This document shows, piece by piece, positions 2,387 to 24,730 of a DNA stretch of 31,931 nt (position 1 is the stretch's first letter; each line of letters starts with the position of its first letter). The notes beneath the pieces were generated by a model. That model had not been told where the DNA came from. It did not search any database and saw only the letters and a program-made list of their open reading frames with translations. The DNA is from a virus. The stretch covers positions 1-31,931 of IMG/VR virus record IMGVR_UViG_3300042893_000168; one strand, given 5' to 3'. The translations under genes were made by a program, and so were the position numbers.

Positions 2387-5300
2387 ATGTCCCAGCCGTC
2401 TAATTTATATGCAGAAAAGATTTATTCTGAGCACCCAACCATTCTTTGGGCTTTGGACGATTCTGCTGACTATATTACTTTAATCACAGAACAACAAAGA
2501 AATATATCTTCTGGATGGACTGTAACCAATGCATCTGTAACATCTGCTGCTGGAGTTACTGGAGAGCCATTTCCAGATAGTTATACAACTTTTGTTCAGG
2601 GAGATGTCCCATCTGGTGCAACAGAAACAGTTACCTTAATAAGTCCAGACTTAGTTAATTTTCAAGATTTAAACACAAACCTTGGATCTTTTTCTATCGG
2701 CTCATACTTTTATTCTGATAGTGCTTATTTGCAATCTGTTCAAATAGGATTTAGATATATTGATACAACCACTTCTTTGCCTGTAGAAGAGTTTGATACT
2801 TTTATAACTTCCGTTTTTAATGCTTGGAGTTTTGTATCTGGAACATTTGACATAGTAGATGAAAACACAGACTTTGAAGTTCTTATAAAACTAAACTATG
2901 CAGAAGGCGGAAGTGCTGGAGATTATAATTTTTATATTAATGGAGTTACAGCAGGACAGTGGTCAGAAGAATTTAATACTACATCTCTTGGAGTAACGCC
3001 AGTTTCTTTTCCTTCTAATATTGCTTTGGATGCAGGTCAAGCAGTAGTTGCAGATCCATATGGTCTTGCAGGAGAAGTTGGATACTATCTTGTAGATAAC
3101 AATGCTTTGATTGCAAGAAACAGCGGTGTGCCAATGGTATTTGGCGCAAGCAACATAACAAGAATGACACCAAACTCAAACAACAAGCCATCCTTAGTTG
3201 TTCCTGGAAGAGGATTCTTAAACAAGTCTGGTCAGTATAAAGAATACACAGTTGAGTTTTGGACAAGAATTAATTCAAATGCTTATGAACCAAAAAAAAT
3301 ATTTGGTCCTATATCTTCAACAGATGGACTTTACGTTGAATCAGGATTTTTAACTCTTGTTATAGGAACAGAATTTGCCTCACACTTTGTTGGTGAGTGG
3401 TTTAGACCAATGCTTATTCATGTTAGAATAATTAGAAATAGTGCAACGGTATTACTAAATGGAGAAGAAGTAATCAATCTTCCTATTAACACAGATACAC
3501 TAAATCTTCCAGATATTCTTAACGAAGATGGTGACAGCCAAGACTGGCTTGGCTTTTATGCTTACACAGATGTAACTCCAGTTGAGATAGACTGTGTTGC
3601 TATTTACCCATACTCTGTTGCAATAAATGTTGCAAAACGCAGGTGGGTTTATGGGCAAGGAGTTCTTTCCCCAGAAGGAATTAACTCAGCATATGGTGGA
3701 ACATCAGCATTCATTGACTATGCCTTTGCAGACTATACTGCAAACTACAACTACCCTGATTTTGCAAACTGGGAACAAGGAACCTTTGATAACCTGACAA
3801 CAACATCAAATACACTTGGTACGCCTCAGTATTCTTTACCAGACATTAGCCTTGGATCAAAATCACTTACACAACTTTATGCAGATAACAGAGATATTCA
3901 GGATCCAGAAGAATATAATTTTATTACCTTTAGACCAGACAACTCTTGGGATGCAGACCAATGCTATTTTAATTTTCCCAACTTTAACATTCTAAGTGAT
4001 TCTATTTATACTATTTATGGAGTATTTAGTTCATCAGATTTAGCAACAGAAGAAACACTAATTAAAATTTACAATCCTCAAAATGGCAATTATTTTAGTA
4101 TTCGTAAAGACCTAGACGAGATTCATTACTACCTATATTTCAATGGCACAGAAGAAGAAATTTATACATCTAATACAATTATAGAAGATGGACTGTTTGC
4201 AGCAGGAATACAGATTAATACCTTGTCGGAGTATTTTGGCGGTAATGTTTCAACATTCTTTGGCAATCAAAACGGACTAAAAATATATGTTGGAGGAGAA
4301 GCAGATCCTGCATACCAGTTTACTGGAAAGATTTATACATTTGGAATATCAACTGCCTACAATTCATCAGACATCTCCGAGCACTTTGAAGAAAATGGCA
4401 CAGCCATAGTTGATGATCTAAACGTTACTGGACTTCCAGAACCAGAAAATGCTATTGCTCTCATCGATCACACCGCAAGTTATACATTGCTTCCCACACA
4501 AGCATACGGATCATACTTCTTGGACATTGGAGTTTCAGGCTATTGGGAAGATTACTTACCACTTTCATATTTTGCACAGTTTGTAACAAATGATGTTGGT
4601 AATAGATATTATGATTTAGATTTCTTGCAGTTCAATATTGGATACCCTTCACCTACTAAGTTGGCAGAATTTGAAACAACTAGTTCTTGGACATATCAGG
4701 AACTAAAAGAACAATTCGCTCATCCAGTTCAAAGAACATATTTACAGTTAGATAACAATCTATTTACTGGCTGGAATGACTATTCTGACATGGCACAAAG
4801 AGCAGAAAAGTATTATGAGTATGATACAACTGATGCTTCCATTAGAAGTTACATAACATTTCAGTACATAGCAGCAGGAGCAAATGCACCAAGATCTGAC
4901 TTCTCAACAATACTGCCAGCAAAAGAAGGTGGCATAATTGATATGGATAACTATCCAGACTGGCTTGCAACAAAGTTTGAAGTAGTTGATAACACTTTAA
5001 TTTATCCAACTAAGACTGTTGACTTTAATGAATTAGCCTTGGTATACCATCTTGATTTTAATATTCGGGGTATTCTTAAAAAGCCTATTGCATTAAGAAG
5101 ACTAGAACTTGCATCACAAGCATTTAACGATAACTCCTTTAATCCAGTTGGAACAAGATTTGGTATTGACATGTTCCCATTTACAAGATCTGGACTATAT
5201 TTTGACTATAAGGCTAAAAATCCGTTCAGCATTTATAAGGGAAGTACTCCATACCTTTATTTAAATAGAACATCTGGAGTAGAGGTACGTGGTGATTTTG

Positions 5301-6004
5301 ATCCACTAACAAGTCGTGGTATGTCTATGCCAATCAATCAAAATATTGCAGATAACTATCGTGTAAGTGCTGCTCAGGTATGGATGAGATATGACCAAGA
5401 TGCTTTTCCAATTACCCCAACAGAAATATTTGAAATCAAGTACAAGGCAGATACAATTAAGTTCTATATGGTTGCAGATAATCCAGAAGGAACAAGAGCA
5501 AGAATATATGCAACTAGCCTAGCAACAAACGCACCATTTAACGGTATTTCTTATTTCATGAATGGCGGAATTGTAAGAGAGCCAGTCTTGACAATCAAAG
5601 AATGGGGAGTTCTTGGTATTGCCTTTGCTAGTGCTCTTAACTTTGATTTATTTATTGGAGCAATTAATTTAACAGGCCCTCTGGTATTTAATAACATTGC
5701 CTACTACCAGGCCAACAACTTGCAGCAGGTTCAGAGCAGCCTTTTAAGGCCTTGGCTTAAGGTTCAGACAGACGGTGTAACAAACTTTGAATGGGAATAT
5801 TGGCTAAATAATTTTGTTTGGGAAGGTGTTTTGGTTATTTCTGCTTCAGATCTTTATGGAGTTCTACCTTCTGACGTATATAAGACTTATATTGGAACTA
5901 ATAAGATTATTATTGATGATTTAGAGGGCATGGTGTTCGATGCAGAGAAACTTAAGGTCTATAATGACACAACATGGACCATTAGGTTGGGCACACCTGT
6001 TTAA
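2387..6004 (+). CDS. Giant virion-associated protein with LamG/concanavalin-like regions
   Basis: A 1205-residue beta-rich protein, probably exposed on the virion and able to bind sugars or the cell surface. Residues about 225-410 look like a LamG (concanavalin-type lectin) fold: a Val-Glu-Phe-Trp-Thr-Arg strand near residue 289, a 'GLYVESGFLTLVIG' type strand pair, and a closing WLGFYAYTD/VEIDCVAIYPY strand. Residues about 520-680 look like a second, weaker copy with its own closing strand. The N-terminus (NLYAEKIYSEHP, then LWALDD) resembles the entry to such a domain. No signal peptide or membrane segment is seen. AAGGAG at 2377-2382 supports ATG 2387. It sits upstream of the portal, away from the other tail-tip genes, so it could be a fibre, a head fibre or a baseplate adhesin; its exact position in the particle is unknown. 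Confidence 0.7.
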   Translation: MSQPSNLYAEKIYSEHPTILWALDDSADYITLITEQQRNISSGWTVTNASVTSAAGVTGEPFPDSYTTFVQGDVPSGATETVTLISPDLVNFQDLNTNLGSFSIGSYFYSDSAYLQSVQIGFRYIDTTTSLPVEEFDTFITSVFNAWSFVSGTFDIVDENTDFEVLIKLNYAEGGSAGDYNFYINGVTAGQWSEEFNTTSLGVTPVSFPSNIALDAGQAVVADPYGLAGEVGYYLVDNNALIARNSGVPMVFGASNITRMTPNSNNKPSLVVPGRGFLNKSGQYKEYTVEFWTRINSNAYEPKKIFGPISSTDGLYVESGFLTLVIGTEFASHFVGEWFRPMLIHVRIIRNSATVLLNGEEVINLPINTDTLNLPDILNEDGDSQDWLGFYAYTDVTPVEIDCVAIYPYSVAINVAKRRWVYGQGVLSPEGINSAYGGTSAFIDYAFADYTANYNYPDFANWEQGTFDNLTTTSNTLGTPQYSLPDISLGSKSLTQLYADNRDIQDPEEYNFITFRPDNSWDADQCYFNFPNFNILSDSIYTIYGVFSSSDLATEETLIKIYNPQNGNYFSIRKDLDEIHYYLYFNGTEEEIYTSNTIIEDGLFAAGIQINTLSEYFGGNVSTFFGNQNGLKIYVGGEADPAYQFTGKIYTFGISTAYNSSDISEHFEENGTAIVDDLNVTGLPEPENAIALIDHTASYTLLPTQAYGSYFLDIGVSGYWEDYLPLSYFAQFVTNDVGNRYYDLDFLQFNIGYPSPTKLAEFETTSSWTYQELKEQFAHPVQRTYLQLDNNLFTGWNDYSDMAQRAEKYYEYDTTDASIRSYITFQYIAAGANAPRSDFSTILPAKEGGIIDMDNYPDWLATKFEVVDNTLIYPTKTVDFNELALVYHLDFNIRGILKKPIALRRLELASQAFNDNSFNPVGTRFGIDMFPFTRSGLYFDYKAKNPFSIYKGSTPYLYLNRTSGVEVRGDFDPLTSRGMSMPINQNIADNYRVSAAQVWMRYDQDAFPITPTEIFEIKYKADTIKFYMVADNPEGTRARIYATSLATNAPFNGISYFMNGGIVREPVLTIKEWGVLGIAFASALNFDLFIGAINLTGPLVFNNIAYYQANNLQQVQSSLLRPWLKVQTDGVTNFEWEYWLNNFVWEGVLVISASDLYGVLPSDVYKTYIGTNKIIIDDLEGMVFDAEKLKVYNDTTWTIRLGTPV

Positions 6005-9435: not shown

Positions 9436-10575
9436 ATGTCGGAACAAGAAATCGTAAAGAACTATCCAGGTTCTCCAACCGTGAACCACAACCATCAAGG
9501 TGATGGTTCATTCGCATCAGGTGACATTGGCGGAGCAACTGCTACCAGTCCAAGCACTTCTGATGTTGGTGCACAACTAGGAAATATTGCAACAGCAAAC
9601 TTTGGTGTATCCAATGGTGCTAACGCAGTAAATCCAACTGGAACACCAGGCGGTATTCTGCTCCCAGAGCAGGCTCGCCGCTTCATCGACTATGTGTGGG
9701 ATGCAACAGTTCTCGCCAAGGATGGTCGTAGAGTTACAATGAGAGCAAACACCATGGAACTTGAGAAAGTTAACGTTGGTGAGCGTGTTATTCGTGCTGC
9801 TGCACAGGCAAACAATAACTACACAAACGCTGGTGCTACATTCACAAAGGTAGAACTAACAACCAAGAAGATTCGTCTTGACTGGGAAGTATCTACAGAA
9901 GCACTTGAAGATAATATTGAAGGCGGTGCACTTGAAGATCATCTAGTTCGCTTGATGACAAATGCATTTGCTAACGATATTGAAGACCTAGCCATTAATG
10001 GTGATGGTTCAACTGGTGACTTCCTTTCAATCATGGAAGGTTTCGTACACAAGGTAGAAAACGATGGCGATGCTCACGAAGCACTCGTTACTGTTACTGA
10101 TGACAACTGGACAACTGAGGTAATGCAGGATATTATCCTTGCAATGCCACGTAAGTATCGTGCACTAAAGCAGAACCTAAAGTTCTACGCAGGTACAGAT
10201 GCTTTCCAGGGTATCGTAAAGAACAACGGAACACTTGCTGATGCAATCGCAGAAGCATTTGCTCCACGTACTGCTGGTACAGAGCGTAACCGTCAGGCAT
10301 ACCTTGATGGACAGGCACAGACATTCGGTGGAGCACGTACAACTCGTGTTCTAGGCATTGATGTACAAGAAGTTCCTTACTACCCAGCAAACTATGTCGA
10401 CTTGACATTCCCTGCTAACCGTGTATGGGGCTTCCAGAGAGATATCACTGTAAACCGTGAATACAAGCCAAAGAAGGATACAATTGAATACACAGTATTC
10501 GTCCGCTTTGGTCTACAGTGGGAAGAACTTGATGCGGTTGCTTATGCAGACGCAGCAGTTGATCCTACAGTATAA
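9436..10575 (+). CDS. Major capsid protein (HK97 fold)
   Basis: Builds the icosahedral shell. I take ATG 9436 as start because GGAGG at 9423-9427 sits eight bases before it; a GTG at 9427 is part of that ribosome site. The 379-residue chain has an N-arm of about 75 residues (YPGSPTVNHNHQGDG near 10-24; LGNI at 48-51; GTPGGILLP at 69-77) and then the HK97 core: QARRFIDYVWDATVLAKDG, a VNVGERVIRAA E-loop region, KIRLDWEVSTEALEDN leading into the long spine helix, LAINGDGSTGD, and a KFYAGTDAFQGIVK A-domain strand, with GFQRDITVNREYKP near the C-terminus. Codons look more uniform than in neighbouring genes, as in highly expressed proteins. The gene ends with TAA TAG in tandem and is followed by a hairpin terminator. 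Confidence 0.93.
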   Translation: MSEQEIVKNYPGSPTVNHNHQGDGSFASGDIGGATATSPSTSDVGAQLGNIATANFGVSNGANAVNPTGTPGGILLPEQARRFIDYVWDATVLAKDGRRVTMRANTMELEKVNVGERVIRAAAQANNNYTNAGATFTKVELTTKKIRLDWEVSTEALEDNIEGGALEDHLVRLMTNAFANDIEDLAINGDGSTGDFLSIMEGFVHKVENDGDAHEALVTVTDDNWTTEVMQDIILAMPRKYRALKQNLKFYAGTDAFQGIVKNNGTLADAIAEAFAPRTAGTERNRQAYLDGQAQTFGGARTTRVLGIDVQEVPYYPANYVDLTFPANRVWGFQRDITVNREYKPKKDTIEYTVFVRFGLQWEELDAVAYADAAVDPTV

Positions 10576-10597
10576 TAGTTTGTAAAAACTAAACGAT

Positions 10598-10630
10598 AGG
10601 GAGGGCAGAGTAAAAACTGCCCTCCTTTAT
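10598..10630 (+). terminator. Rho-independent terminator after the capsid gene
   Basis: A 9-base-pair GC-rich stem (GGAGGGCAG at 10600-10608 with CTGCCCTCC at 10617-10625), extended by one G-U and one A-T pair, closes an 8-base loop and is followed by TTTAT. The T-run is short, so termination may be partial and let some transcript run on into the next gene. Confidence 0.8.
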
Positions 10631-10645
10631 CAATTAAGGAATAAA

Positions 10646-10870
10646 ATGTCATATCCAGGAAATCCAACAGTTCCTCATCAACACGATGGTGATGGAGCAA
10701 TTGCTGTTGGAGGAGTTGGCGGGGTAATAGTAATGGGTCCATCAGGAATTATTACACAAAACAATGTTTTAGGAAATATACCAACACCTATATTTGGTGA
10801 TAATATATCAATTTCTGGAACACCTAGTGGTATTAGAAGACCACAAACATTGAGAGCAAGCAGAAGATAA
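10646..10870 (+). CDS. Stand-alone paralogue of the capsid protein N-terminal arm
   Basis: A 74-residue protein whose whole length aligns with residues about 10-82 of the major capsid protein: YPGxPTVxHxHxGDG at 3-17 against 10-24, G..GG after it, LGNIxTxxFG at 42-51 against 48-57, and GTPxGIxxP at 58-66 against 69-77. It stops with a basic RASRR tail where the capsid continues into its folded core. AAGGA at 10636-10640 gives a good ribosome site. It lies after the terminator and has no promoter of its own in the gap, so it should be made at a lower level than capsid protein. A role as minor capsid component, decoration or assembly modulator is possible; nothing in the sequence decides this. 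Confidence 0.8.
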   Translation: MSYPGNPTVPHQHDGDGAIAVGGVGGVIVMGPSGIITQNNVLGNIPTPIFGDNISISGTPSGIRRPQTLRASRR

Positions 10871-10878
10871 TTCATTTC

Positions 10879-10887
10879 TGATATAAT
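10879..10887 (+). promoter_or_regulatory. Extended -10 promoter (TGATATAAT)
   Basis: TGATATAAT lies nine bases after the stop codon of the small paralogue gene. The predicted transcription start is near 10894, at the front edge of the GGAGG ribosome site, so the leader would be about ten bases. Confidence 0.55.
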
Positions 10888-10903
10888 AGCAGTGGAGGAT
10901 ATT

Positions 10904-11257
10904 ATGGCAACAACAGTAGAAGTAGTAGAAAAATTTGCTAAAAAGACGGTACCGCAATTACAGGCATATGCCAAAAAGAACAATATAGATTTATATGGAA
11001 CTGAAACAAAAGAAGAAATGCTAGAGGCTATTTTGCCTTTTGTACCAAGAAAAGATCCAGTAGAAGAAGTACTAATAGAGAATCCAAAAGAAAAGGTTGC
11101 ACTTTATTCAGAGCGTAATCTACATTGGACTGGTGTGGGTGCCCTTGAAAAAGGATATAACATTGTCACTAAGGAGGCATCCGTTAAATGGTTAACTCAT
11201 AAGGCAGTGCGTGAAGCATCGCCTAAAGAAGTAGCCAAACACTACGGTAAAATCTAA
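10904..11257 (+). CDS. Small head protein with N-terminal HeH/SAP-like helical motif
   Basis: A 117-residue protein. I choose ATG 10904, five bases after GGAGG (10894-10898), rather than the upstream in-frame GTG 10892. Residues about 10-45 (AKKTVPQLQAYAKKNNIDLYG, then TKEEMLEAIL) form a helix-extension-helix pattern like HeH/SAP/Rho-N motifs, which can bind nucleic acid. The C-terminal half has LYSERNLHWTGVGALEKGYN and WLTHKAVREASPKEVAKHYG, a pattern I associate with small head proteins found between the capsid and connector genes. The stop overlaps the next ATG (TAATG). The function is not certain; it could be a head or head-tail connector accessory protein. Confidence 0.72.
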   Translation: MATTVEVVEKFAKKTVPQLQAYAKKNNIDLYGTETKEEMLEAILPFVPRKDPVEEVLIENPKEKVALYSERNLHWTGVGALEKGYNIVTKEASVKWLTHKAVREASPKEVAKHYGKI

Positions 11258-12243
11258 TGCAAATATTGCGCTTACCACCATACCCGCTTACAATATCTTA
11301 TGATGTTCCACTAGCGAACACAGAGTATTTATTGCTAATTCAAGACAGTTCTAGAAATGTTATTGAAGTTGAAGAAAATATAACATCTACTTCTGGATCA
11401 CAAATTGAATACACCTTGCCATCCTTATTTAGTTCTTATGATGAATCATATTATTTGGCAATCTATGAGGTAGAAGATGGTGAGCAGGCAGAGATTGTTG
11501 TTGAAGATAATCTAGAGGTAATGCGCCCGTATGTTAATCCAACCACACTTGCAAAAAAGTATGGGTCAGGAACAGCAACTGAAATTAATGAGTATACACA
11601 GTATGAAGACTTAGCAAGAGCAATCATTGATTCCATTGTTCCTGGAGGATTTTATTATGAAAGATCTTGGTATGAAGTAAATGGCAACGGAACAGACTAC
11701 CTTGCTATCTGGGACAGAGTTTATAAAATCTTAAAGGCTTATGAAAACAATGAACTTGTTTGGGATTCAACACAAGATCCACAAGCATTGTTTGAGTGGA
11801 GTTACTTATTAACAAAAGATAAAACAGCAATTATTAAAGAGTGGAATCAGCAAACTACTGATTCATATGTCAGAGCAGTTGGAACACCAAAGGGTGTGCC
11901 GCTTGGTGAGTCAGATTCTATCTATTTATATGACACAGAGGATAGCCCCGTAACCTTGGCAGTTGCAGCAGGTGTTACATTTCCAATAACTTTTAACTAC
12001 TTATTCTCACTAGAAACTGGGTACAAGGTAGTGCCTTATGATATACAAGATGCCATAACAATGCTTATTGATGATATTAAGTGTGGAAGAATGGAATACC
12101 ACAAGAGATATATACTTGATTATTCTACTGATCAATATAAGATTAAAATTGACAAGTCTGCCCTTGACGGTACAGGAAATATCCTAGTAGACAGAATCCT
12201 AGAAAAGTATATAACAAACTTTGGTACACCTGGAGTCTTGTAA
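11257..12243 (+). CDS. Head-to-tail connector (adaptor) protein, probable
   Basis: A 328-residue protein with an N-terminal beta-sandwich-like part (residues about 1-90) and a helical C-terminal part in which LARAIIDSIVPGGFYYE and VPYDIQDAITMLIDDIKCGRMEYHKRY look like the helices of connector proteins that dock below the portal. Its position after capsid and before head-closure and neck genes supports the call. It overlaps both neighbours by one base (TAATG), so translation is coupled. The N-terminal beta domain is an addition to the usual short all-helical adaptor. The family call rests more on gene order than on motifs. Confidence 0.65.
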   Translation: MQILRLPPYPLTISYDVPLANTEYLLLIQDSSRNVIEVEENITSTSGSQIEYTLPSLFSSYDESYYLAIYEVEDGEQAEIVVEDNLEVMRPYVNPTTLAKKYGSGTATEINEYTQYEDLARAIIDSIVPGGFYYERSWYEVNGNGTDYLAIWDRVYKILKAYENNELVWDSTQDPQALFEWSYLLTKDKTAIIKEWNQQTTDSYVRAVGTPKGVPLGESDSIYLYDTEDSPVTLAVAAGVTFPITFNYLFSLETGYKVVPYDIQDAITMLIDDIKCGRMEYHKRYILDYSTDQYKIKIDKSALDGTGNILVDRILEKYITNFGTPGVL

Positions 12244-12692
12244 TGAATAGTTGTGAGACAACAGATTTTATTTACCCAATGAAGGCTGATATTTACTATC
12301 CTATAATTACACAGAATAGTTATGGACAGGCCAATAAAGAGTGGGTATTTGATAGAACAGTTTCTTGTAATGCTACCCCAGTTGGTGGGGCAGGAGATGT
12401 AGAATTAAAACCAGAAGTATTTTTACAGTATGATGGAAAACTAATTGCTAGATCAAAGTCAGACCTAAGAACTTCTTCTAATAATACAGATAATGCAATT
12501 AGCAACATATTAATTACTAATATTCGTAGTTCAACAGACGTATCAATATACAAAGAAACTGGCGGACCAAGAGCAGGCCGTGGAACAATTTATGAAGTTG
12601 GAACTCTAGAGCCTTTTGTTGGTCCTTTTGGCGATATAGAATACTACAAGATGCTCTGGCGCAGAACAGAGAATCAGACGGTTGGTGACTAA
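12243..12692 (+). CDS. Head closure / stopper protein, probable
   Basis: A 149-residue beta-rich protein. The opening 'MKADIYYPIITQNSYGQANKEW' followed by FDRTVSCNATP resembles head-tail joining proteins (SPP1 gp16 type) that seal the portal channel after packaging. GGAG at 12232-12235 lies seven bases before ATG 12243 and the genes overlap by one base on either side. Size and place, third in the connector block, agree with the call; sequence motifs alone would not be decisive. Confidence 0.6.
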   Translation: MNSCETTDFIYPMKADIYYPIITQNSYGQANKEWVFDRTVSCNATPVGGAGDVELKPEVFLQYDGKLIARSKSDLRTSSNNTDNAISNILITNIRSSTDVSIYKETGGPRAGRGTIYEVGTLEPFVGPFGDIEYYKMLWRRTENQTVGD

Positions 12693-13369
12693 TGCGTGTA
12701 GTTATTAATACAAAAGCATTTGAAAAACAACTTACAAATATAGCAAACTACTCTTTTGGTTTTTTAGATGGAGTCAATCGTGGTAAAAAAGAATTTTTAA
12801 ATAATTTAGGTAAAAGTGTTATTGTTGCATTGGGTCAATACATTGATTCAGAAGCAAGAGCCAACAGCAGAAGTATGCACCACGTATATGAGTGGTACAA
12901 AACTGGTAGCCCAGGATCAAGACTTTTTACTTTAAACTATACTGTTAGCAATCTTGGATTATCAGTAAACTCAACTTTTAGACAATCAAGCACAGTAACA
13001 GAAGAAATGACAGTTCCGTTTTATAATAAAGCAAAAATAATGGAGCAAGGAATTCCTGTTACAATTAAGCCAAAGGCAAACGGTGCTCTTAAGTTTAAAG
13101 ACGGAGGACAGGAAGTCTTTGTTACAAAACCAATAACAATAAGAAACCCTGGAGGAGATGCAGTTGAAGGTTCTTTTGAAAGAGTTTTTGATGAGTTTAT
13201 GCGAAACTACTTTACTCAGGCATTTTTAAGATCTAGCGGCTTGCTGGCATATCTAAACAAACCTGTAGCATATAAGAAAAATATTTTGGCGGGATCAAGA
13301 ATGGGTAGATCCAAGGGTATTGATACTGGATACAAGTGGATTATTAATGCAAATGTTAAGGTAGAATAA
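12692..13369 (+). CDS. Neck protein / tail completion protein, probable
   Basis: A 225-residue protein beginning with a basic strand (MRVVINTKAFEKQL) and a long helix carrying 'KKEFLNNLGKSVIVALGQYIDSEAR', then a YEWYKTGSPGSRLFTL segment and a beta-rich second half. This arrangement resembles HK97 gp10-type neck proteins that join head-closure and tail-terminator rings; many are 130-200 residues, so this one is a little long. The ribosome site is weak (GGTG), consistent with coupling to the upstream gene, whose stop overlaps the ATG. Confidence 0.65.
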   Translation: MRVVINTKAFEKQLTNIANYSFGFLDGVNRGKKEFLNNLGKSVIVALGQYIDSEARANSRSMHHVYEWYKTGSPGSRLFTLNYTVSNLGLSVNSTFRQSSTVTEEMTVPFYNKAKIMEQGIPVTIKPKANGALKFKDGGQEVFVTKPITIRNPGGDAVEGSFERVFDEFMRNYFTQAFLRSSGLLAYLNKPVAYKKNILAGSRMGRSKGIDTGYKWIINANVKVE

Positions 13370-15841: not shown

Positions 15842-18800
15842 ATGAGTGATGTTAATGCCAATATTGGGGTACAAATTGATACCTCTGCGGCATTAGCACA
15901 ACTCAAAAATTTACAACGTCAGATAGCAACCTTTCATTCACAAATTTCTAAGTCCAGTGCTACTGCAGCAATGGCTCAAAAAAATCTACAAACAAACCTA
16001 CTTAATGCTATAAATGCAACTGGAAAATTCCATGCACAAATGGGTGTTGTCAGAACATCCACTGAGTCATTTACTGATGCATTAGAAAAAAATAAACTCT
16101 CAATGAGAGAGTACTTCCGTTTTGCTGGAGGTGCGTCTAAATCATTTGGAAAGTTATTTAAACAAGAGTTTGACACAATAGGCAAGGTTGCTGAAGATCG
16201 TGTCAAGAAAATGCAGACTCAGTATATTAAGATGGGTCGTGACGCATCTGGTGCAATGAAGGCAATGTCCATTACACCAAACACTCTAAATATGAAAGAC
16301 TATGGCACACAAACAGCCCTAGCAGCACAAAAACAAGCACTCTTTAATCAGTTAGTTAAACAAGGATCTACAAATCTTTTAAACTTTGGTAAAAATACTC
16401 AGTGGGCTGGTCGCCAGTTAATGGTTGGCTTTACTGTTCCACTTATGTACCTGGGCACAGTTGCTGCTAAAACTTTTATGGATCTTGAGCAGCAGGCTCT
16501 TAAGTTTAAGCGTGTTTATGGAGACATGTTTACAACAAACGAACAAACAAACAAAGCACTTAAAGATGTTGAACTACTAGCAAAAGAGTTTACAAAATAT
16601 GGTGTCGCAGTTAGCAAGACAATGGAAATGGCTGCCTCTGCTGCGGCAATGGGTAAAACTGGAGCAGATCTTACTGCTCAAGTTGCACAGGCAACAAGGC
16701 TTGCAGTTCTTGGTAATGTTGAGCAAGAGCAAGCACTTGAAACAACAATTTCTTTAACAAGCGCATTTGGTATTGCTGCTGAAGACCTTGCAAAGAAAAT
16801 TGACTTTCTTAACTCTGTAGAAAACCAAACAATTGTATCTATTGAAGATTTAACAATTGCGGTTCCAAAGGCTGGACCAGTTGTTAAGCAACTTGGTGGA
16901 GACGTAGAAGACCTAGCATTCTTCCTAACAGCAATGAAGGAAGGTGGCATTAATGCATCAGAAGGTGCTAACGCACTCAAGTCTGGTCTTGCATCTTTAA
17001 TTAATCCTAGTAAAAAAGCAGCAGCAATGCTTAACGACTATGGTGTTAACATCAAGGCAATTGTTGAGGGTAATCAAGGAGACATTAAAAATACTGTTAT
17101 TGAATTTGCACAAGCACTAGATACCTTGGCACCACTTGATCGATCAAGATCAATTGAGCAACTGTTTGGCAAGTTCCAGTTTGCACGTCTATCAACACTG
17201 TTTCAAAATATAACAAAAGAAGGAACCCAGGCAAACAAAGTTTTAGAACTTTCTAAGATGGAAGTAGAAGAACTTGCAATCCTTTCTGAAAGAGAATTAA
17301 AAACAATAGAAAATGCTGTTGGCACTAATTTTAAAGCAGCAGTTGAAAGTCTTAAATTAACAATTGCTCCAATTGGTAAAACATTTTTAGAAGCAGTAAC
17401 TCCAATCGTAAAAGCACTTGCTGGCCTGCTTGAAAACTTTAATAACCTTGGAGACGGAACAAAAAAGTTTATAGTCGTTGCTTCTACTCTTGTTGGTATT
17501 ATTGGCCCAACTCTTCTGATGACATTTGGTTTGCTTGCAAACGGAGCAGCAAATATTGTCAAACTGTTCCTTGCAATGCGTACTGGATTTTTAAAACTTG
17601 GTGGAAATACAAAAATTCTTGGAGAAAGCACTCAATACCTAAATAGCGAACAACTTGAAGCAGCAACTGTTGCGGCATCATTAAATCAAGCGCACACCAG
17701 ACTAACTCAAACATTTGTACTAGAAACATCTGCAGTAAACGCACTTAGAAATGCATATTTAGATGCAACACTAGCAGCGACTAATTTTGCCAGAGCAAAT
17801 CCAGGCATGATGATGCCAGGTGCTAAAGGTAAAACCCCTAAGAAGTTTGCAAAAGGAACAGCCTATGTTCCAGGTACGGGAAACAAAGACACAGTAGCAT
17901 CTATGCTTACTCCTGGAGAAGCAGTCATTCCAGCACCTATTGCACAAGATCCTCAGTTCCAACCAATCATTGATGCAATGGTTAGCGGAAAACTTCAGGG
18001 ATTTAATCTCGGTACTGGCTCGGTTAGCCAAGCAGGTAAAAAACAAAGTTCAAAGCCAATGTCTTCAAGAGATGCTTTTGCACATGTTGGAAAAGCAGTA
18101 TCAGTTGGAGCAGAAGATTATATAAAACAGTCTTCTGGGCTAAGTGAATATGACAAAGCAAGAATTAGAGCAGTAGATGGAATAGAAAGAGCCGCTGGAA
18201 AGTCAGGACTTGTTACCGACTACAGAGGACTAGGGTTTTCTTTTAGTCAAGAATTAAATACTCAACTTGCTAAAAAGAATGGTGTGCCACTTGATGTCTT
18301 TGAAAAAGAATGGCTTGCCCAAGGCCCAGACAAATGGGATGCAACTAAAGATAGAAAACTAGTAAAAAATCTTTATGGTCCAGATAACTCTGTTATTGAT
18401 GATTCAATGCTTAAAAAGATTAAGGAAGAGGCCGCTAAGTCGGGCGGAAAAGTAACAGATGATTTAATTAAAAAATCTTTTCAGGATTTGCCAGCAGGTG
18501 TAAAAGCAACAAAAACATATCAAGCAATGGATACAGCATTCCAAGCCAGATCACAATACGGTGTTGGAAAAGGAATGTCTCACAATCCAAGAACAATGGA
18601 AAAGAAGTTTAAAGCAGCAATTGCTGCAGGAACAATTGCCAATGCTCCAGTTATTATAGTAGATGGAGATGCAACAACTTACAACGGTAAAACAAATCCA
18701 TTAGGCAAAGACGGAAATCCTCAAAAACTTTCTGCTCTTTTAGGAAGTCCAGGATTTGAACTGCCTGCAAAATCACACGTTATTGTAGAAAGAACAGACT

Positions 18801-21800
18801 CTAGAGGAAAGAAAAAATCTGGATCAATCTTTGCTTATGATCCAAAATTCTCTGACCCAATATTTATTTCTAAGGGTGCAAGTACAACTAGAGCAAATGT
18901 TGGAAGAAACCCTAACTTAATCTCAAAGGAACAAATCAAGGAAGTTAAGCAGAGACTAAGTGCAAGATCTCTAGAAGAAATGAAAAGAATTGATGCAGAT
19001 GTAAAGTCTAGCAGCATGGCAAAGGTTAAGCCTACAGACTTTGGAAAGCAAATTGCACCTACGGCTGGATACAGTTTCCCAGTTTCTGGAATTGGCGGAG
19101 TATACGAAAAAGACGGTAAAAAAGTATTTGTTAAGCCAATGATTGATGAAAGATCAGCAAAAGCAGAACTACGTGCAAATAGAATTGCTAGAGAAGCACA
19201 TGGTCTAGATACACCTGAGCAAGTCATGAAGGTTATGGCAGATCCAAACAATAAAAAGAGAAAAATTATTGTTTTAGAATCTGCTTTTGATCCAAGATTT
19301 GCAGAATCAAATATGACTGGAAAGTTTACAAAAGATCAATACTTTAGACAGTTGACAGCATCATTGCTGCGTGGAGATAAAGACTTAAAACGAGGAAACC
19401 TCTCTGGAAATATATTGACAGATCCAGGAGCAGCGGGAGTATTTGATAGGGCTTCTGGAAGAAGAGATTATTCTACTGGAATGAAATCAATGCTTGGACA
19501 AGCAGAAATTAACCTGCTTGGAGTAAAGGGTGGAGCAAGTAAAGATTTTGCTAAGGCAACGGTAGATATTCCAAAGGGCATGACCGCAGATCAGTACCAT
19601 AGATCAATGATTGCTGAAATAGATAGAGTTCTTCCAAAATTAAAAAATGTTGTAAATAGTTTTGCCCTAACAGATCCAGTTGAAAAGGCAGTCTACAAAG
19701 ATATGATTGCAAGACTTGAAAAGGGTAAGTTAACAGACTGGCGTGGTATTCATAAGATGCACTCATCTGTACTAGTTACAAAAGATGAAATGCTTGAAGA
19801 TGAAAAAACTAAAAAGATATCTGCAATCAAGAAGAAAAAGAAAACAAGGGCTGTTGAGTCAATAGTTCCAAATAGAAAAGATCAATATTTAGCCTCTGTT
19901 CCAAAAGGTAAGTCAGTTGTTCAAAAACCACTTAGAGTTATTGGTAGAGCAGATGCTCCATTAAGTCAACAGGATCAGATTAGACAAAGAGCAGCACAAG
20001 AAGGAGTTAGTTTATCAACTGCAAGAAGAAGACTTGTTTCTGAGGGTCAACTAATTGAAGGAATAAAAAAACAATCAGAGGCTTTAGAAAAATCAACAGT
20101 TGCTGCAAATGAAAATACAAAAGCATCAAAACTGTCAAAAGAAAGCCTTAGATCTTTTGGAGCAAAAGCAAATATTGGTGTTGGAGCAGTTAGTGGTTTA
20201 ACTATAGCGGCTTCATTTGCTGGTGGCAAAATTGGAGAAATGGCACAAAAGATTATGCCGTTTGTCTTTGGTTTGCAGGGTATATTGATGTTACTTCCAT
20301 TGCTTATGAATCCACTTATCGGATTACCGCTTGCAATTGGTGCAGTAGTTGCTGGTATTTGGTTATTTAATAAAAAACAAAATGATGCTATTAAAGCAGA
20401 AGCAAGACTTGTAGATGAAGTATTTGCAACAACAAAGAAGATGCAACAGGTCGGAGAAATATCTGGCAAGGTTGGCGCATCACAACTTGCAGCACGTAAG
20501 CGAGAGTCAGCAGGTGGAGACTTTTCTTTTGAGCGCAAGGGTATTAAGTTTGGAAGTGCATTCTTACAAAGTGAAGTGGGACAGTCAGACATCGCAGCAT
20601 TTGAAGCAAGATTTAAAGCAATGCCAGATATTGCTATGAAAGAATTTTCTCTTAAGTTGGCAAGTTATGTATCTGATGGTGTTATAGATGCAGCACAGGC
20701 TGCAAGCATTGCAGACCAGGTAGGAATTCAATTTCAGGATAAAGTTCTTGGAATAAAAATTCAGGGACAATTACAAGGATTGTTGACATCAGACGGCAAA
20801 GATATAACTCAAGAACCATTTGAAATTAGAATTAAAATTGCAGAAGAAACAGTATCTCAATTTGATAACTTAGTTCCAAACCTTCAAAAACAACTTGGAT
20901 TGGCAGAAAAGGATGCAAATGCTTTAGGAGATAAACTTTCATTAGCAATGAATCTACCTATATCAGATCCTTTACGAGATAAGCAAATTGCTGCAGCAGA
21001 AACTTTATTTAGAGATTCTGAAAAAAGAGTTGCTATTATTAAAAATTCTATTAAACAAAATTCTGCTTTTGCTGCAGGAATGTCAAGTCAAGCATACGAA
21101 GCAATTCAAGCACAAATTGACGGTATAGATATTACTACATCAAAGACTCTTGATAAACTAAAAGCAGATAAAGCAGCAACAAAAGATTTAGAAAAACAAG
21201 CCTTAATTCAAAAACAAATTGATTCTATCGAATTAAAAAGAACTGCTTCACTCAGCAAACTTAGAGCAATGAATGACAGAGTTACAAGAGGCATTGAGCA
21301 ACAACTTAAACTATCTTCATCTGGAGAAAAGCAGGCATTCTTTACTGGAAGCGCAGAAGCAGTTCGATCTAGATTTAAGGGTACAAGGCAAGAGAGCGAC
21401 GCAAACCTATTGCTTGCTAAGACAGCACAAATGGGTCAGTCTGTAGTAAGGGCAAAGATAGAAGCAGTAGTTTCTTCTGGACAGTTTGGCCCAGGACAAG
21501 CATCAGGTTTTATTAATTTATTTGGTAATGATCAAGCAGCATTAAATAAAACACTTAATACATTTTTAAATGTTCAAGGAATAGATGACTTAAATAAACT
21601 ACAGTCTATTCTTGGAACTTTTGAAGATCAAAAGTTGGCTAAAGATATCATGGTTAATATGTCTGGCCTTTCTGATTCAGAATTCCAAGCACAATATTCA
21701 ACTCTTGAATTATTAATGCAAATGGATAATGAAGAAATAAATGTTGAGTTAGTATTAAAAGATCCAGGTGCTCTTGCAAAAATAACAAGTATTAATACAG

Positions 21801-22177
21801 CAATCGAAAATATTCCAGATGTAACACAAAAGTCAGTAGAACTTGTCTTGACTGAAAAGGGATTTAGTGCTGGTGGACTTGAAGAAATTTCTGCTAACTG
21901 GGAATACTTTGAAGGACTTCCATCAAATTTAAGAAAAACAGCACTTCAAACATTTACTACTCTACATGCAACAATCTTTGCAAATAAAGAATCTAAAATG
22001 GAATGGGCTAGAAATTATGCTGAAACCATGACTCCTAACCTAAGAAAACAAAATCGTGAAGAAGCGGTAACTAGAGTACTTACAACTATAATTGATGTTA
22101 AAACTGGAGAGTTTACTGCAAAGGGAGATAAGGCTATTGCAGCAGATGTTCTTGCTCAAACAAAAGATATTATTTGA
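15842..22177 (+). CDS. Tape measure protein, N-terminal part (with kinase-like insertion)
   Basis: Sets tail length and enters the cell on infection. GAGG at 15830-15833 supports ATG 15842. The 2111 residues contain: helical N-terminus (1-180) with typical 'VQIDTSAALAQLKNLQRQI'; a TP901-type tape-measure core (about 180-500) with QLMVGFTVPLMYLGTVAAKTF and GGINASEGANALKSG; a hydrophobic segment (about 544-568); a DTVASMLTPGEAVIP motif (about 680-695); an unrecognised region (735-1075); a kinase-like region (about 1075-1215: GIGGVYEKDGKKVFVKPM with Lys1098, Glu1109 or Glu1118, DKDLKRGNLSGNIL with Asp1181, Asn1186 and Asn1190, and Asp1202); a Lys-rich stretch; two hydrophobic segments (about 1471-1510); and further helices. 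It ends at TGA 22175-22177, with the frame open again straight after. Confidence 0.9.
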   Translation: MSDVNANIGVQIDTSAALAQLKNLQRQIATFHSQISKSSATAAMAQKNLQTNLLNAINATGKFHAQMGVVRTSTESFTDALEKNKLSMREYFRFAGGASKSFGKLFKQEFDTIGKVAEDRVKKMQTQYIKMGRDASGAMKAMSITPNTLNMKDYGTQTALAAQKQALFNQLVKQGSTNLLNFGKNTQWAGRQLMVGFTVPLMYLGTVAAKTFMDLEQQALKFKRVYGDMFTTNEQTNKALKDVELLAKEFTKYGVAVSKTMEMAASAAAMGKTGADLTAQVAQATRLAVLGNVEQEQALETTISLTSAFGIAAEDLAKKIDFLNSVENQTIVSIEDLTIAVPKAGPVVKQLGGDVEDLAFFLTAMKEGGINASEGANALKSGLASLINPSKKAAAMLNDYGVNIKAIVEGNQGDIKNTVIEFAQALDTLAPLDRSRSIEQLFGKFQFARLSTLFQNITKEGTQANKVLELSKMEVEELAILSERELKTIENAVGTNFKAAVESLKLTIAPIGKTFLEAVTPIVKALAGLLENFNNLGDGTKKFIVVASTLVGIIGPTLLMTFGLLANGAANIVKLFLAMRTGFLKLGGNTKILGESTQYLNSEQLEAATVAASLNQAHTRLTQTFVLETSAVNALRNAYLDATLAATNFARANPGMMMPGAKGKTPKKFAKGTAYVPGTGNKDTVASMLTPGEAVIPAPIAQDPQFQPIIDAMVSGKLQGFNLGTGSVSQAGKKQSSKPMSSRDAFAHVGKAVSVGAEDYIKQSSGLSEYDKARIRAVDGIERAAGKSGLVTDYRGLGFSFSQELNTQLAKKNGVPLDVFEKEWLAQGPDKWDATKDRKLVKNLYGPDNSVIDDSMLKKIKEEAAKSGGKVTDDLIKKSFQDLPAGVKATKTYQAMDTAFQARSQYGVGKGMSHNPRTMEKKFKAAIAAGTIANAPVIIVDGDATTYNGKTNPLGKDGNPQKLSALLGSPGFELPAKSHVIVERTDSRGKKKSGSIFAYDPKFSDPIFISKGASTTRANVGRNPNLISKEQIKEVKQRLSARSLEEMKRIDADVKSSSMAKVKPTDFGKQIAPTAGYSFPVSGIGGVYEKDGKKVFVKPMIDERSAKAELRANRIAREAHGLDTPEQVMKVMADPNNKKRKIIVLESAFDPRFAESNMTGKFTKDQYFRQLTASLLRGDKDLKRGNLSGNILTDPGAAGVFDRASGRRDYSTGMKSMLGQAEINLLGVKGGASKDFAKATVDIPKGMTADQYHRSMIAEIDRVLPKLKNVVNSFALTDPVEKAVYKDMIARLEKGKLTDWRGIHKMHSSVLVTKDEMLEDEKTKKISAIKKKKKTRAVESIVPNRKDQYLASVPKGKSVVQKPLRVIGRADAPLSQQDQIRQRAAQEGVSLSTARRRLVSEGQLIEGIKKQSEALEKSTVAANENTKASKLSKESLRSFGAKANIGVGAVSGLTIAASFAGGKIGEMAQKIMPFVFGLQGILMLLPLLMNPLIGLPLAIGAVVAGIWLFNKKQNDAIKAEARLVDEVFATTKKMQQVGEISGKVGASQLAARKRESAGGDFSFERKGIKFGSAFLQSEVGQSDIAAFEARFKAMPDIAMKEFSLKLASYVSDGVIDAAQAASIADQVGIQFQDKVLGIKIQGQLQGLLTSDGKDITQEPFEIRIKIAEETVSQFDNLVPNLQKQLGLAEKDANALGDKLSLAMNLPISDPLRDKQIAAAETLFRDSEKRVAIIKNSIKQNSAFAAGMSSQAYEAIQAQIDGIDITTSKTLDKLKADKAATKDLEKQALIQKQIDSIELKRTASLSKLRAMNDRVTRGIEQQLKLSSSGEKQAFFTGSAEAVRSRFKGTRQESDANLLLAKTAQMGQSVVRAKIEAVVSSGQFGPGQASGFINLFGNDQAALNKTLNTFLNVQGIDDLNKLQSILGTFEDQKLAKDIMVNMSGLSDSEFQAQYSTLELLMQMDNEEINVELVLKDPGALAKITSINTAIENIPDVTQKSVELVLTEKGFSAGGLEEISANWEYFEGLPSNLRKTALQTFTTLHATIFANKESKMEWARNYAETMTPNLRKQNREEAVTRVLTTIIDVKTGEFTAKGDKAIAADVLAQTKDII
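22175..22177 (+). other. In-frame TGA dividing the tape measure
   Basis: The codons ATT-TGA-ATT-CAA-GCA-ATG join two open frames of the same phase. Tryptophan is encoded by TGG throughout the window, and TGA ends the gene at 6023-6418, so general recoding of TGA is not supported. Local readthrough, reinitiation, a nonsense mutation or a sequencing error remain. Confidence 0.85.
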
Positions 22178-22186
22178 ATTCAAGCA

Positions 22187-24730
22187 ATGATTGATAAAAT
22201 GCTTAATCCTAAAGGCAGCGGCAGCGGCGAAAAGGGTACAAGAAATACATTTCTTGATAGTGTTCTAGATAGACTAAGAAGAACAAGAGATGCAAGTGTT
22301 GACACCACAAAAGGGCTAAGCGAACTTAGAAGAGTTCTTAAAGACTCTGGAGGAGACATAAAAGTATTTGATGGTTTAGATCAACAACTTTCAAAACTAA
22401 AAGCACCACAAGAATTTATTGACTTTGTTGCTAGTTTAGATCCAAAGGGTAAAAAGGGTGCAATCGATTCATTGGCAACATACCTTGATGCAGAAAAATT
22501 AAAAAAGGGTATTGTTGAATTAACTAAAGATGGAAGAATACTCCTAGATGTATTTAGAGAAGGAGCAATTGGAGAGTTTGAAAGTGATTTAAGAAAAGCA
22601 ACCAATGGTTTGATTGCACAAAAAACACAGTTTATCTTTCTTAATACAATAGTAAAAGACAACGTAAAGTCTGCAGAGATGCTTGCAGATGCAAATTTTG
22701 CCTTAGCCCTAAGTTCAGCAAAAACAACCACAGAGGTTAAGAGGCTTGTTGATGCATTTAATGCTCAGAAAGCAGCACAAGAAGACTTGGCAATGACACA
22801 AGACCCTCTAAAATCATTGCAAGATAAATTCTCTGAGGTAGAAGATAGAATAAACAAATTCTTTTCATTAGCAAATGAAGCAATAGAGGGTAGATTTGCT
22901 AGAAGAATACTTGCTGGAGAAAGAGCAGTAGATGCTGCTCAAAAGCAAGTTGAAAAAGCACAGAAAGAAATAACAAGGATTCAAGACCATATTGACGGCA
23001 TTCAGTCAAAAATTGATGACAAACAAAGAGAAATTGAAATGTCAATTACTCGTCCAATTGAGGCTTTCCAAGAAACAATCTCTGGTATTGAAAATACAAT
23101 TAATACTCAGTTCGATAAACCTATTGCTATATTACAAGAAGAATCTTCAGACCTTGCAAATGATTTGACATTGCTTGACAAAGCAGCAGATGCAATTAAC
23201 AAAAAATATGATGCACAAGAAGAAGCATTAAATAAAATTGCTGAAATTAATAAAGATTTAATTGGACAAGAAAAGCAAAGAATTTCACTTGCTGATACAT
23301 TGACCTCTGGAGATATTTCTGCAGCAGCACAGGCTGTTCAGGACATGCGCCAAGCAAGAGCAGAAGCAGCATCTGTTTCAAACATGGACATGCTCAAGGC
23401 AGCAAGAGAATCAGAACTTGATAAGCAAAGAACTGCTGCTGGTCTTACAAGACTACAAATTGAAGAGCGACAATTTGCAATAAGCCAAAGCATATTCCAA
23501 CTTGAAGAAGGCCGTGAAGTCCTTGAGCAAAGAATTGCAAATATTAAAGAACTTTCTATTCTTCCACTTGAAAGAGAAAGAGAAAAACTTTCAAAACTTA
23601 TTCGTGGATACGAAGATGAAATTTATAACATTACAAACGGTATTGGTGTTTCTGAAACATTAAATCTAAAACTTGCTAATGAAAAACTTGATGCTGCAAT
23701 TAAAACTCTTGATACTAAGAAGGCAGAACTACTTGCTATAGAAGAAGAAAGACAAAAAGAATTAGATCACCTTGATGACTTAAAGTTACAATGGATAGAG
23801 GTTAAGGGCGGTATTGCAGAGGCAGAACTTCAAACTATTAGTTTACAGGCAGAAATTGCAAAAGCAATAGAACTAGCAAAACAACTTGCAGCATTGTTTG
23901 CTTCAATGAAAGTTCCTGGCGGTGGAGTTACAGTTCCTTTTGTTGCAGATCCAAAAGCATCTCCTGAAGCAAACCAAGAAGCAAAAGATGCAGCAGACGC
24001 AGCAGCAGACGCACTAGCAGAGTCAAACGCAGCAGCAGATGAAGCAACAGCAGCAGCGTTAGCAGCAGCAGATGCAGTATCAGCCCTATCAGTAGAAGCA
24101 GATGCAATATTAAAAGCAACAAATAGCATTGCCAGAGTTGCAATTGTAAAAGCAACAAACATAAATAGTTTAAATAAAGCAGTTGCTCTTGCACAAGATA
24201 CCCTGTCTCCAGAATCTATAGCAATAAATATGGCAAGAGCAATAACAGGTTCAGAATCTATGACAAAAGCAGTAGGTGGAACAGCAGCAGCACTTTCAGC
24301 AGCACGATATACTGGCCAAGCATTAAGATATGCTCAAATGGAAAAAGAAAAAGCAGATAAACAAGCCGTAGCAGATTTAGGGTCAGCAGGCGTAGGCTTA
24401 CGAACAGGTGATACCTTTATGCAATTTATGGCAGGTGGCGGAATGGTTATGCCTAAATATTTTGCTGCTGGAGGCTATTCTCGTGGTACAGACACAGTAC
24501 CAGCAATGCTGTCTCCAGGAGAGTTTATAATGAGTAAATATGCTGTTAACTCTTATGGTCTTGATAAGATGAAGGCTATGAACAGTGGAACATACAAAGG
24601 CGAGAAGGTGTATAATTATAACCTAAGTGTTAATGTTAAGTCTGATGCAAATCCAGATGATATTGCAAGGGTAGTAATGACACAAATTAAACAAATTGAT
24701 TCACAAAGAGTTAGAGGACAAAGAGCATAA
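22187..24730 (+). CDS. Tape measure protein, C-terminal part (same frame after a TGA)
   Basis: The frame of the tape measure continues after TGA 22175-22177 for 847 residues from ATG 22187. There is no Shine-Dalgarno before this ATG or the next (22199), so the part may be made by readthrough of the TGA or by reinitiation three codons later. Residues about 239-490 form long coiled coils (AQKQVEKAQKEITRIQDHI; LEQRIANIKELSILPLERE); about 595-645 is an Ala/Asp-rich stretch; and about 750-795 holds GGGMVMPKYFAAGG and DTVPAMLSPGEFIMSKYAV, the usual tape-measure C-terminal motif. The ending overlaps the next ATG by one base. With the upstream part it would give a protein of about 2960 residues. If not read through, it would be a separate tail protein. 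Confidence 0.8.
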   Translation: MIDKMLNPKGSGSGEKGTRNTFLDSVLDRLRRTRDASVDTTKGLSELRRVLKDSGGDIKVFDGLDQQLSKLKAPQEFIDFVASLDPKGKKGAIDSLATYLDAEKLKKGIVELTKDGRILLDVFREGAIGEFESDLRKATNGLIAQKTQFIFLNTIVKDNVKSAEMLADANFALALSSAKTTTEVKRLVDAFNAQKAAQEDLAMTQDPLKSLQDKFSEVEDRINKFFSLANEAIEGRFARRILAGERAVDAAQKQVEKAQKEITRIQDHIDGIQSKIDDKQREIEMSITRPIEAFQETISGIENTINTQFDKPIAILQEESSDLANDLTLLDKAADAINKKYDAQEEALNKIAEINKDLIGQEKQRISLADTLTSGDISAAAQAVQDMRQARAEAASVSNMDMLKAARESELDKQRTAAGLTRLQIEERQFAISQSIFQLEEGREVLEQRIANIKELSILPLEREREKLSKLIRGYEDEIYNITNGIGVSETLNLKLANEKLDAAIKTLDTKKAELLAIEEERQKELDHLDDLKLQWIEVKGGIAEAELQTISLQAEIAKAIELAKQLAALFASMKVPGGGVTVPFVADPKASPEANQEAKDAADAAADALAESNAAADEATAAALAAADAVSALSVEADAILKATNSIARVAIVKATNINSLNKAVALAQDTLSPESIAINMARAITGSESMTKAVGGTAAALSAARYTGQALRYAQMEKEKADKQAVADLGSAGVGLRTGDTFMQFMAGGGMVMPKYFAAGGYSRGTDTVPAMLSPGEFIMSKYAVNSYGLDKMKAMNSGTYKGEKVYNYNLSVNVKSDANPDDIARVVMTQIKQIDSQRVRGQRA

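Follow-up and report, generated by a model that had tools for sequence, protein, structure and literature searches.

We have analysed a stretch of viral DNA of 31,931 nucleotides (positions 1 to 31,931 of IMG/VR virus record IMGVR_UViG_3300042893_000168; hereafter the window) whose tape measure protein (TMP) carries an internal domain that almost certainly adopts a kinase fold, as judged from its predicted structure, and that most likely represents a phosphotransferase of HipA/PI3K-like type borne by the TMP as cargo. The TMP was identified both by profile searches (PF10145, PhageMin_Tail, E 5e-25; phrog_10030, E 2e-100) and by its position among tail genes. When TMP residues 1023-1332 were modelled with AlphaFold2 from an alignment of 44 sequences (predicted local distance difference test, pLDDT, 88; predicted template modelling score, pTM, 0.85), the N-lobe consisted of a strand, a glycine-rich loop, a strand, a strand holding Lys1098, a helix holding Glu1109, a further strand, and a strand with the hinge, followed by a helix, the catalytic loop, two very short strands, Asp1194-Pro-Gly1196 and a helical C-lobe. 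The model thus has the order of N-lobe, hinge, alphaE, catalytic loop and helical C-lobe that characterizes the kinase-like superfamily. In a Foldseek search of the PDB with this model, all 50 of the 50 listed matches were protein kinases, the best being CtkA of Helicobacter pylori (E 4.4e-4, probability 0.99), and in a viral library large uncharacterised phage and halovirus proteins came first, followed by many giant-virus kinases. The neighbouring upstream domain of the same TMP, modelled over residues 735-1030, served as a control: it gave nothing below E 1.2 against the PDB and matched no Pfam family, so that the method does not yield kinase matches for tape measure domains as a matter of course. 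A kinase-like fold had been proposed in a preliminary description of this DNA made from the sequence alone, and the model and the Foldseek search bear this out; the interval then given (18060-19480, residues 740-1213) was misplaced, since it takes in the separate upstream domain (~740-1020), the kinase-like domain really lying at ~1041-1310.

Homologues were collected from IMG/VR by a scan with the domain (38 loci), an alignment-based scan (the best 80 of at least 164), a scan with the TMP N-terminus (80 TMP loci) and further searches that used a DNA pattern for the catalytic loop or a divergent member as the probe. The 250 full-length copies of the domain reduced to 146 unique sequences and to 102 at <90% mutual identity, with a mean pairwise identity of 46% and a minimum of 22%. 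Among the 306 columns of this alignment 14 are invariant, namely Gly1076, Gly1086, Lys1098, Glu1109, Pro1125, Gln1170, Arg1177, Asp1179, Asp1181, Asn1186, Asp1194, Asn1224, Phe1236 and Arg1291. These include the strand-3 lysine and alphaC glutamate of the kinase superfamily, as well as its canonical catalytic-loop spacing (Asp1181-x4-Asn1186). The DNA pattern scan selects for the loop, but two alignments without pattern-scan loci, A2 (44 sequences) and A3 (which includes the divergent loci L182 and L150), show no variation at these catalytic residues either, and they are kept in divergent members at 23-39% identity. L182, when used as a search probe, matched itself alone.

The motifs and residues quoted in the preliminary description are present as stated within residues 1083-1206: GIGGVYEKDGKKVFVKP begins at residue 1083 (19088-19138), IIVLESAFD at 1142, DKDLKRGNLSGNIL at 1179 and GVFDRASG at 1199. 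Four of the seven residues singled out there (Lys1098, Glu1109, Asp1181 and Asn1186) are found in 102/102 homologues, which exceeds chance because only 14 of the 306 columns are invariant (hypergeometric P = 9e-5), whereas Glu1118, Asn1190 and Asp1202 are unconserved. Its expectation that the lysine, the loop residues and Asp1202 would persist in close homologues therefore held for Lys1098, Asp1181 and Asn1186, all of which are kept, and failed for Asp1202 and for Asn1190, which had been named as an alternative to Asn1186. The last of these had been taken as the metal ligand, but position 1202 is Asp in 37/102 sequences and otherwise mostly Ala, Ser, Gly, Lys, Asn or Glu, and its loss from 65/102 led us to reject it as the DFG aspartate. 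In the model the final short strand is followed directly by a D-P-G sequence, and conservation together with predicted secondary structure makes its invariant Asp1194 (D-x-G) the more likely metal ligand. We consider that the domain is probably catalytically active.

The domain behaves as an optional insertion. The TMP N-terminus was present in 228 of the 263 domain-bearing open reading frames (ORFs), the others being truncated where the contig or locus ends or disrupted by a frameshift, and the domain is confined to TMPs in everything sampled. Among 80 TMPs fetched by their N-terminus alone, 22 had the domain and 16 were truncated, while 42 (42/64 of those of sufficient length) lacked it, including some with 80-89% identical N-termini. 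Direct comparison of two loci, L009 and L124, shows the empty site: a 70% match runs to one point and then resumes, with ~308 extra residues in L009 versus 6 in L124. The domain had earlier been described as an insertion between hydrophobic segments; the empty site supports the insertion, and the placement is true of the window (residues 542-566 and 1470-1510) and varies in relatives. Median TMP length is 2823 residues with the domain versus 2447 without it, and the domain starts anywhere from residue 724 to residue 1851 in different TMPs. In five distinct TMPs (L063, L088, L099, L105 and L117), a ~37-residue motif, GxxSVPGPKGxGDVVPAMLSPGEAVIPA, stands on both sides of the domain. A tree of the TMP N-terminus, the deep part of which is unsure owing to several long branches, requires at least 5 changes in domain presence, 3 of them forced by well supported branches. 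Moreover, TMPs whose N-termini share 76-87% identity with the N-terminus in the window have domains ranging from 82% down to 33% identity, and those with N-termini only 36-38% identical have domains mostly at 47-49%. Such loose coupling between the divergence of the domain and that of the N-terminus looks like the pattern of an exchanged, mobile cassette.

As a side observation, a ~37-residue motif of the form VPGxGNxDTVxAMLTPGEAVIP recurs in TMPs (in the window, Table 1, and in L063, L084, L088, L099, L105 and L117). Several of these TMPs have inserted domains flanked by it on either side, which suggests that its copies are slot borders for domain exchange; copies in one gene are 61-78% identical in DNA.

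The preliminary description had placed the domain near the PI3K/PI4K, HipA, actin-fragmin kinase or APH families, and membership of any of these found no support in Pfam profiles or in hhalign comparison with Escherichia coli HipA. Pfam and PHROGs gave nothing convincing for TMP residues 987-1373, and none of the PI3K/PI4K, actin-fragmin kinase and APH Pfam models was listed for 44 members of the domain family at E up to 10. HipA (PF07804) was rejected because the HipA_C profile was silent in the window, though it matched in 4/14 control genomes, and hhalign with E. coli HipA gave a 24-residue chance match alone. Also set aside were chance-level PDB hits to C2 domains of PKC, cadherin, annexin and designed helical bundles (searches with one sequence and two profiles), and Pfam CpXC (E 0.06) and NanE-type matches in a few members, which fell below the cut-off. 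No match to the domain was found in named phages by tblastn, and no relative in GTDB genomes. The catalytic loop of the domain resembles that of a HipA/PI3K-type kinase; in the HipA family this loop has the form G-[N/D]-x-D-x-x-x-x-N. CtkA, a HipA-like Ser/Thr kinase (PDB 3akj/3akk/3akl), shares the order of the N-lobe and the catalytic residues with the domain; however, there is no detectable sequence similarity, the template modelling (TM) score is ~0.3, and CtkA is a free-standing bacterial protein rather than part of a virion protein.

A similar stretch occurs in gp13 of the Haloarcula virus HHTV-1, a protein of 1100 residues encoded adjoining the head genes, which was matched to the domain by Foldseek. 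The N-lobe and catalytic loop of the two can be aligned (AASVLTGNRDIHGGN versus TASLLRGDKDLKRGN) with a weak hhalign E of 0.006 from a single comparison. Yet gp13 is not a tape measure (that of HHTV-1 is gp35), its C-lobe is unaligned and its D-N-G lies at the usual distance. The kinase-like stretch (VFEK, GNRDIHGGN, VDNG) within gp13 (9436-12738 of HHTV-1, locus L120) is unannotated in the record, and gp13 as a search probe matched HHTV-1 alone. There are hints here, from sequence comparison, that large proteins of the virion region may contain kinase folds more widely. We found no kinase in a tape measure in the open-access literature searched, which leaves out most subscription journals; the 'kinase domain protein' of MinS1 was discarded as a precedent, the term referring to a separate ORF of 95 residues.

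Our current working hypothesis is that an optional kinase-fold phosphotransferase of ~310 residues rides in the TMP as a cargo cassette. It would be carried in the tail lumen, unfolded or extended, as part of the TMP, be ejected together with the DNA or before it, and refold once in the cytosol, which contains ATP. ATP-Mg would be bound through Lys1098, Glu1109, Asn1186 and Asp1194, with Asp1181 as the catalytic residue, and phosphate, or possibly AMP, would be transferred, leading to early modification of a host protein such as a defence, translation or transcription factor. In mycobacteriophage Douge, TMP trimers occupy a tail lumen of ~35 Å and their expulsion to form an envelope channel has been proposed (PMC13033339); because TMPs are ejected and proposed to form such a channel, a role as a delivered effector is plausible by analogy. 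A precedent of a kind is found in Streptomyces contractile injection systems, in which TMP-related effectors (Tme, Sle1) carry enzyme domains (PMC11126660, PMC13277306). Like the TMP described here, they are TMP-derived, with an exchangeable functional domain, and ejected from a tail-like tube, but they belong to bacterial injection systems, their domains (endonuclease and others) are C-terminal and neither paper reports a kinase among them (PMC11126660, PMC13277306).

Several observations weigh against this hypothesis. The domain has no sequence match in Pfam, PHROG, NCBIfam or the PDB, and no kinase family profile recognizes it. TM-scores against PDB structures are low, about 0.2-0.3, which implies that its C-lobe differs from those of solved kinases, and the distance from Asn1186 to Asp1194, 8 residues, is unusually short. 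Strong constraint on the core of the domain would also narrow its identity range, a caveat to the exchanged-cassette reading. Finally, three folded 30-kDa domains abreast exceed a lumen of ~35 Å, and so the domain must unfold and refold; a TMP-related injection effector has been proposed to travel unfolded or extended (PMC13277306). With these points counted, we regard the cargo-cassette explanation as a whole as evenly balanced between right and wrong, and give action of the domain in the newly infected cell an equal standing.

Since a kinase needs ATP, cytosolic action is to be expected, in either the newly infected or the producing cell. That the domain is an active kinase of the producing cell, which phosphorylates tail or chaperone proteins or itself and so controls TMP folding, tail assembly or DNA gating, is unlikely but is the alternative that fares best. 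Synthesis of the TMP takes place in that cell's ATP-containing cytosol, the catalytic residues are invariant and the domain occurs in a structural protein only; an optional domain exchanged independently of its backbone is, however, a misfit for a core assembly role. Indeed, a domain that is optional and diverges fast, yet holds its catalytic residues constant, is likelier to be a host-directed enzyme than to serve in assembly. Kinase-fold enzymes with AMP-transferring, glutamylating and small-molecule-phosphorylating activities exist, and an enzyme of this kind (SelO-type, in the first case) would suit a C-lobe that, by its low TM-scores, matches no solved kinase and a domain that no family profile fits; we think this improbable, as the D-x4-N spacing of the catalytic loop is typical of phosphotransferases and a protein kinase comes first among the structural matches. 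Slightly less probable still is a pseudokinase, that is, a kinase-fold spacer, nucleotide-binding or purely structural, which adds length to the tape measure or aids an interaction without catalysis. The greater length of TMPs with the domain, the loss of Asp1202 from 65/102 homologues and the very short Asn1186-Asp1194 segment would be in keeping with such a spacer, but pseudokinases as a rule lose at least one of the Lys, Glu, Asp, Asn and D-x-G Asp, all of which are invariant here at 46% mean identity. That the motifs match by chance, in a helical insert of the tape measure that has no kinase fold, would accord with the absent sequence-profile match and the low global TM-scores but is very improbable given the confident model, the consistent kinase matches, the negative control and the invariant catalytic set.

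The proposed cargo cassette is set in a TMP whose other features are collected in Table 1. The TGA at 22175-22177 that ends the TMP reading frame in the window reads GGA in contig L001, which is 99.99% identical across 12.9 kb; the full-length TMP is 2962 residues, with the ORF at 22187-24730 as the remainder of the same protein, and the stop codon represents a nonsense variant or else an error in sequencing. The upstream domain occurs in TMPs both with and without the kinase domain, its invariant residues including the His and Gly of HVG, and K-W. The phage resembles the Stanwilliamsviridae (Streptomyces phages) in gene order and in its TMP, capsid and minor tail proteins, at 24-44% identity, and the host of the phage family is likely to be actinobacterial. 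The TMPs of Tomas, Mildred21 and MeganTheeKilla (~2100 residues) from this group have a homologous N-terminus (~29% identity) and similar gene order, but the domain is absent from all three. Elsewhere in the window, a class II (B12-dependent) ribonucleotide reductase gene at 331-2358 adjoins the head genes, and an ORF of 1205 residues at 2387-6004, between it and the portal gene, has no Pfam, PHROG or named-phage match.

Table 1. Features of the tape measure gene and its kinase-fold domain in the window
Feature	Position	Strand	TMP residues	Basis and remarks
TMP ORF	15842..22177	+		2111 residues as read in the window; in-frame continuation 22187-24730 past a single TGA
Hydrophobic segment	17465..17539	+	542-566	Hydropathy scan
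GTAYVPGTGNKDTVASMLTPGEAVIP motif, upstream border of variable slot	17855..17932	+	672-697	Motif also found on either side of the kinase domain in L063, L088, L099, L105 and L117
Separate domain upstream of kinase domain	18059..18901	+	~740-1020	AlphaFold2 pLDDT 91, pTM 0.83
Kinase-fold domain (predicted)	18962..19771	+	~1041-1310	AlphaFold2 model, Foldseek, 102 non-redundant homologues
Glycine-rich loop GYSFPVSGIGGVY, between strands 1 and 2	19067..19105	+	1076-1088	Gly1076 and Gly1086 invariant; model position
Lys1098, ATP-site lysine, strand 3	19133..19135	+	1098	102/102; within model strand 71-78
Glu1109, helix alpha-C glutamate	19166..19168	+	1109	102/102; within model helix 81-96
Catalytic loop RGDKDLKRGN	19370..19399	+	1177-1186	Arg1177, Asp1179, Asp1181 and Asn1186 each 102/102
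D-P-G, probable DFG equivalent	19421..19429	+	1194-1196	Asp1194 102/102, Gly1196 100/102
Hydrophobic segments	20249..20371	+	1470-1510	Hydropathy scan

If a conserved and active kinase does occupy a swappable slot, then TMPs, which are usually deemed rulers or pore formers, would also be a platform for enzyme delivery at the start of infection, in parallel with the TMP-related effectors of contractile injection systems, and the cassette could explain part of the variation in tape measure size. Phages with and without it form a natural control set, and the residues defined here offer concrete targets. It is conceivable, though we hold this more tentatively than the cargo-cassette explanation itself, that these domains represent a new class of virion-delivered kinases, swapped through a slot in the TMP and injected with the genome, which may disable host defences or reprogramme the cell before phage expression begins.

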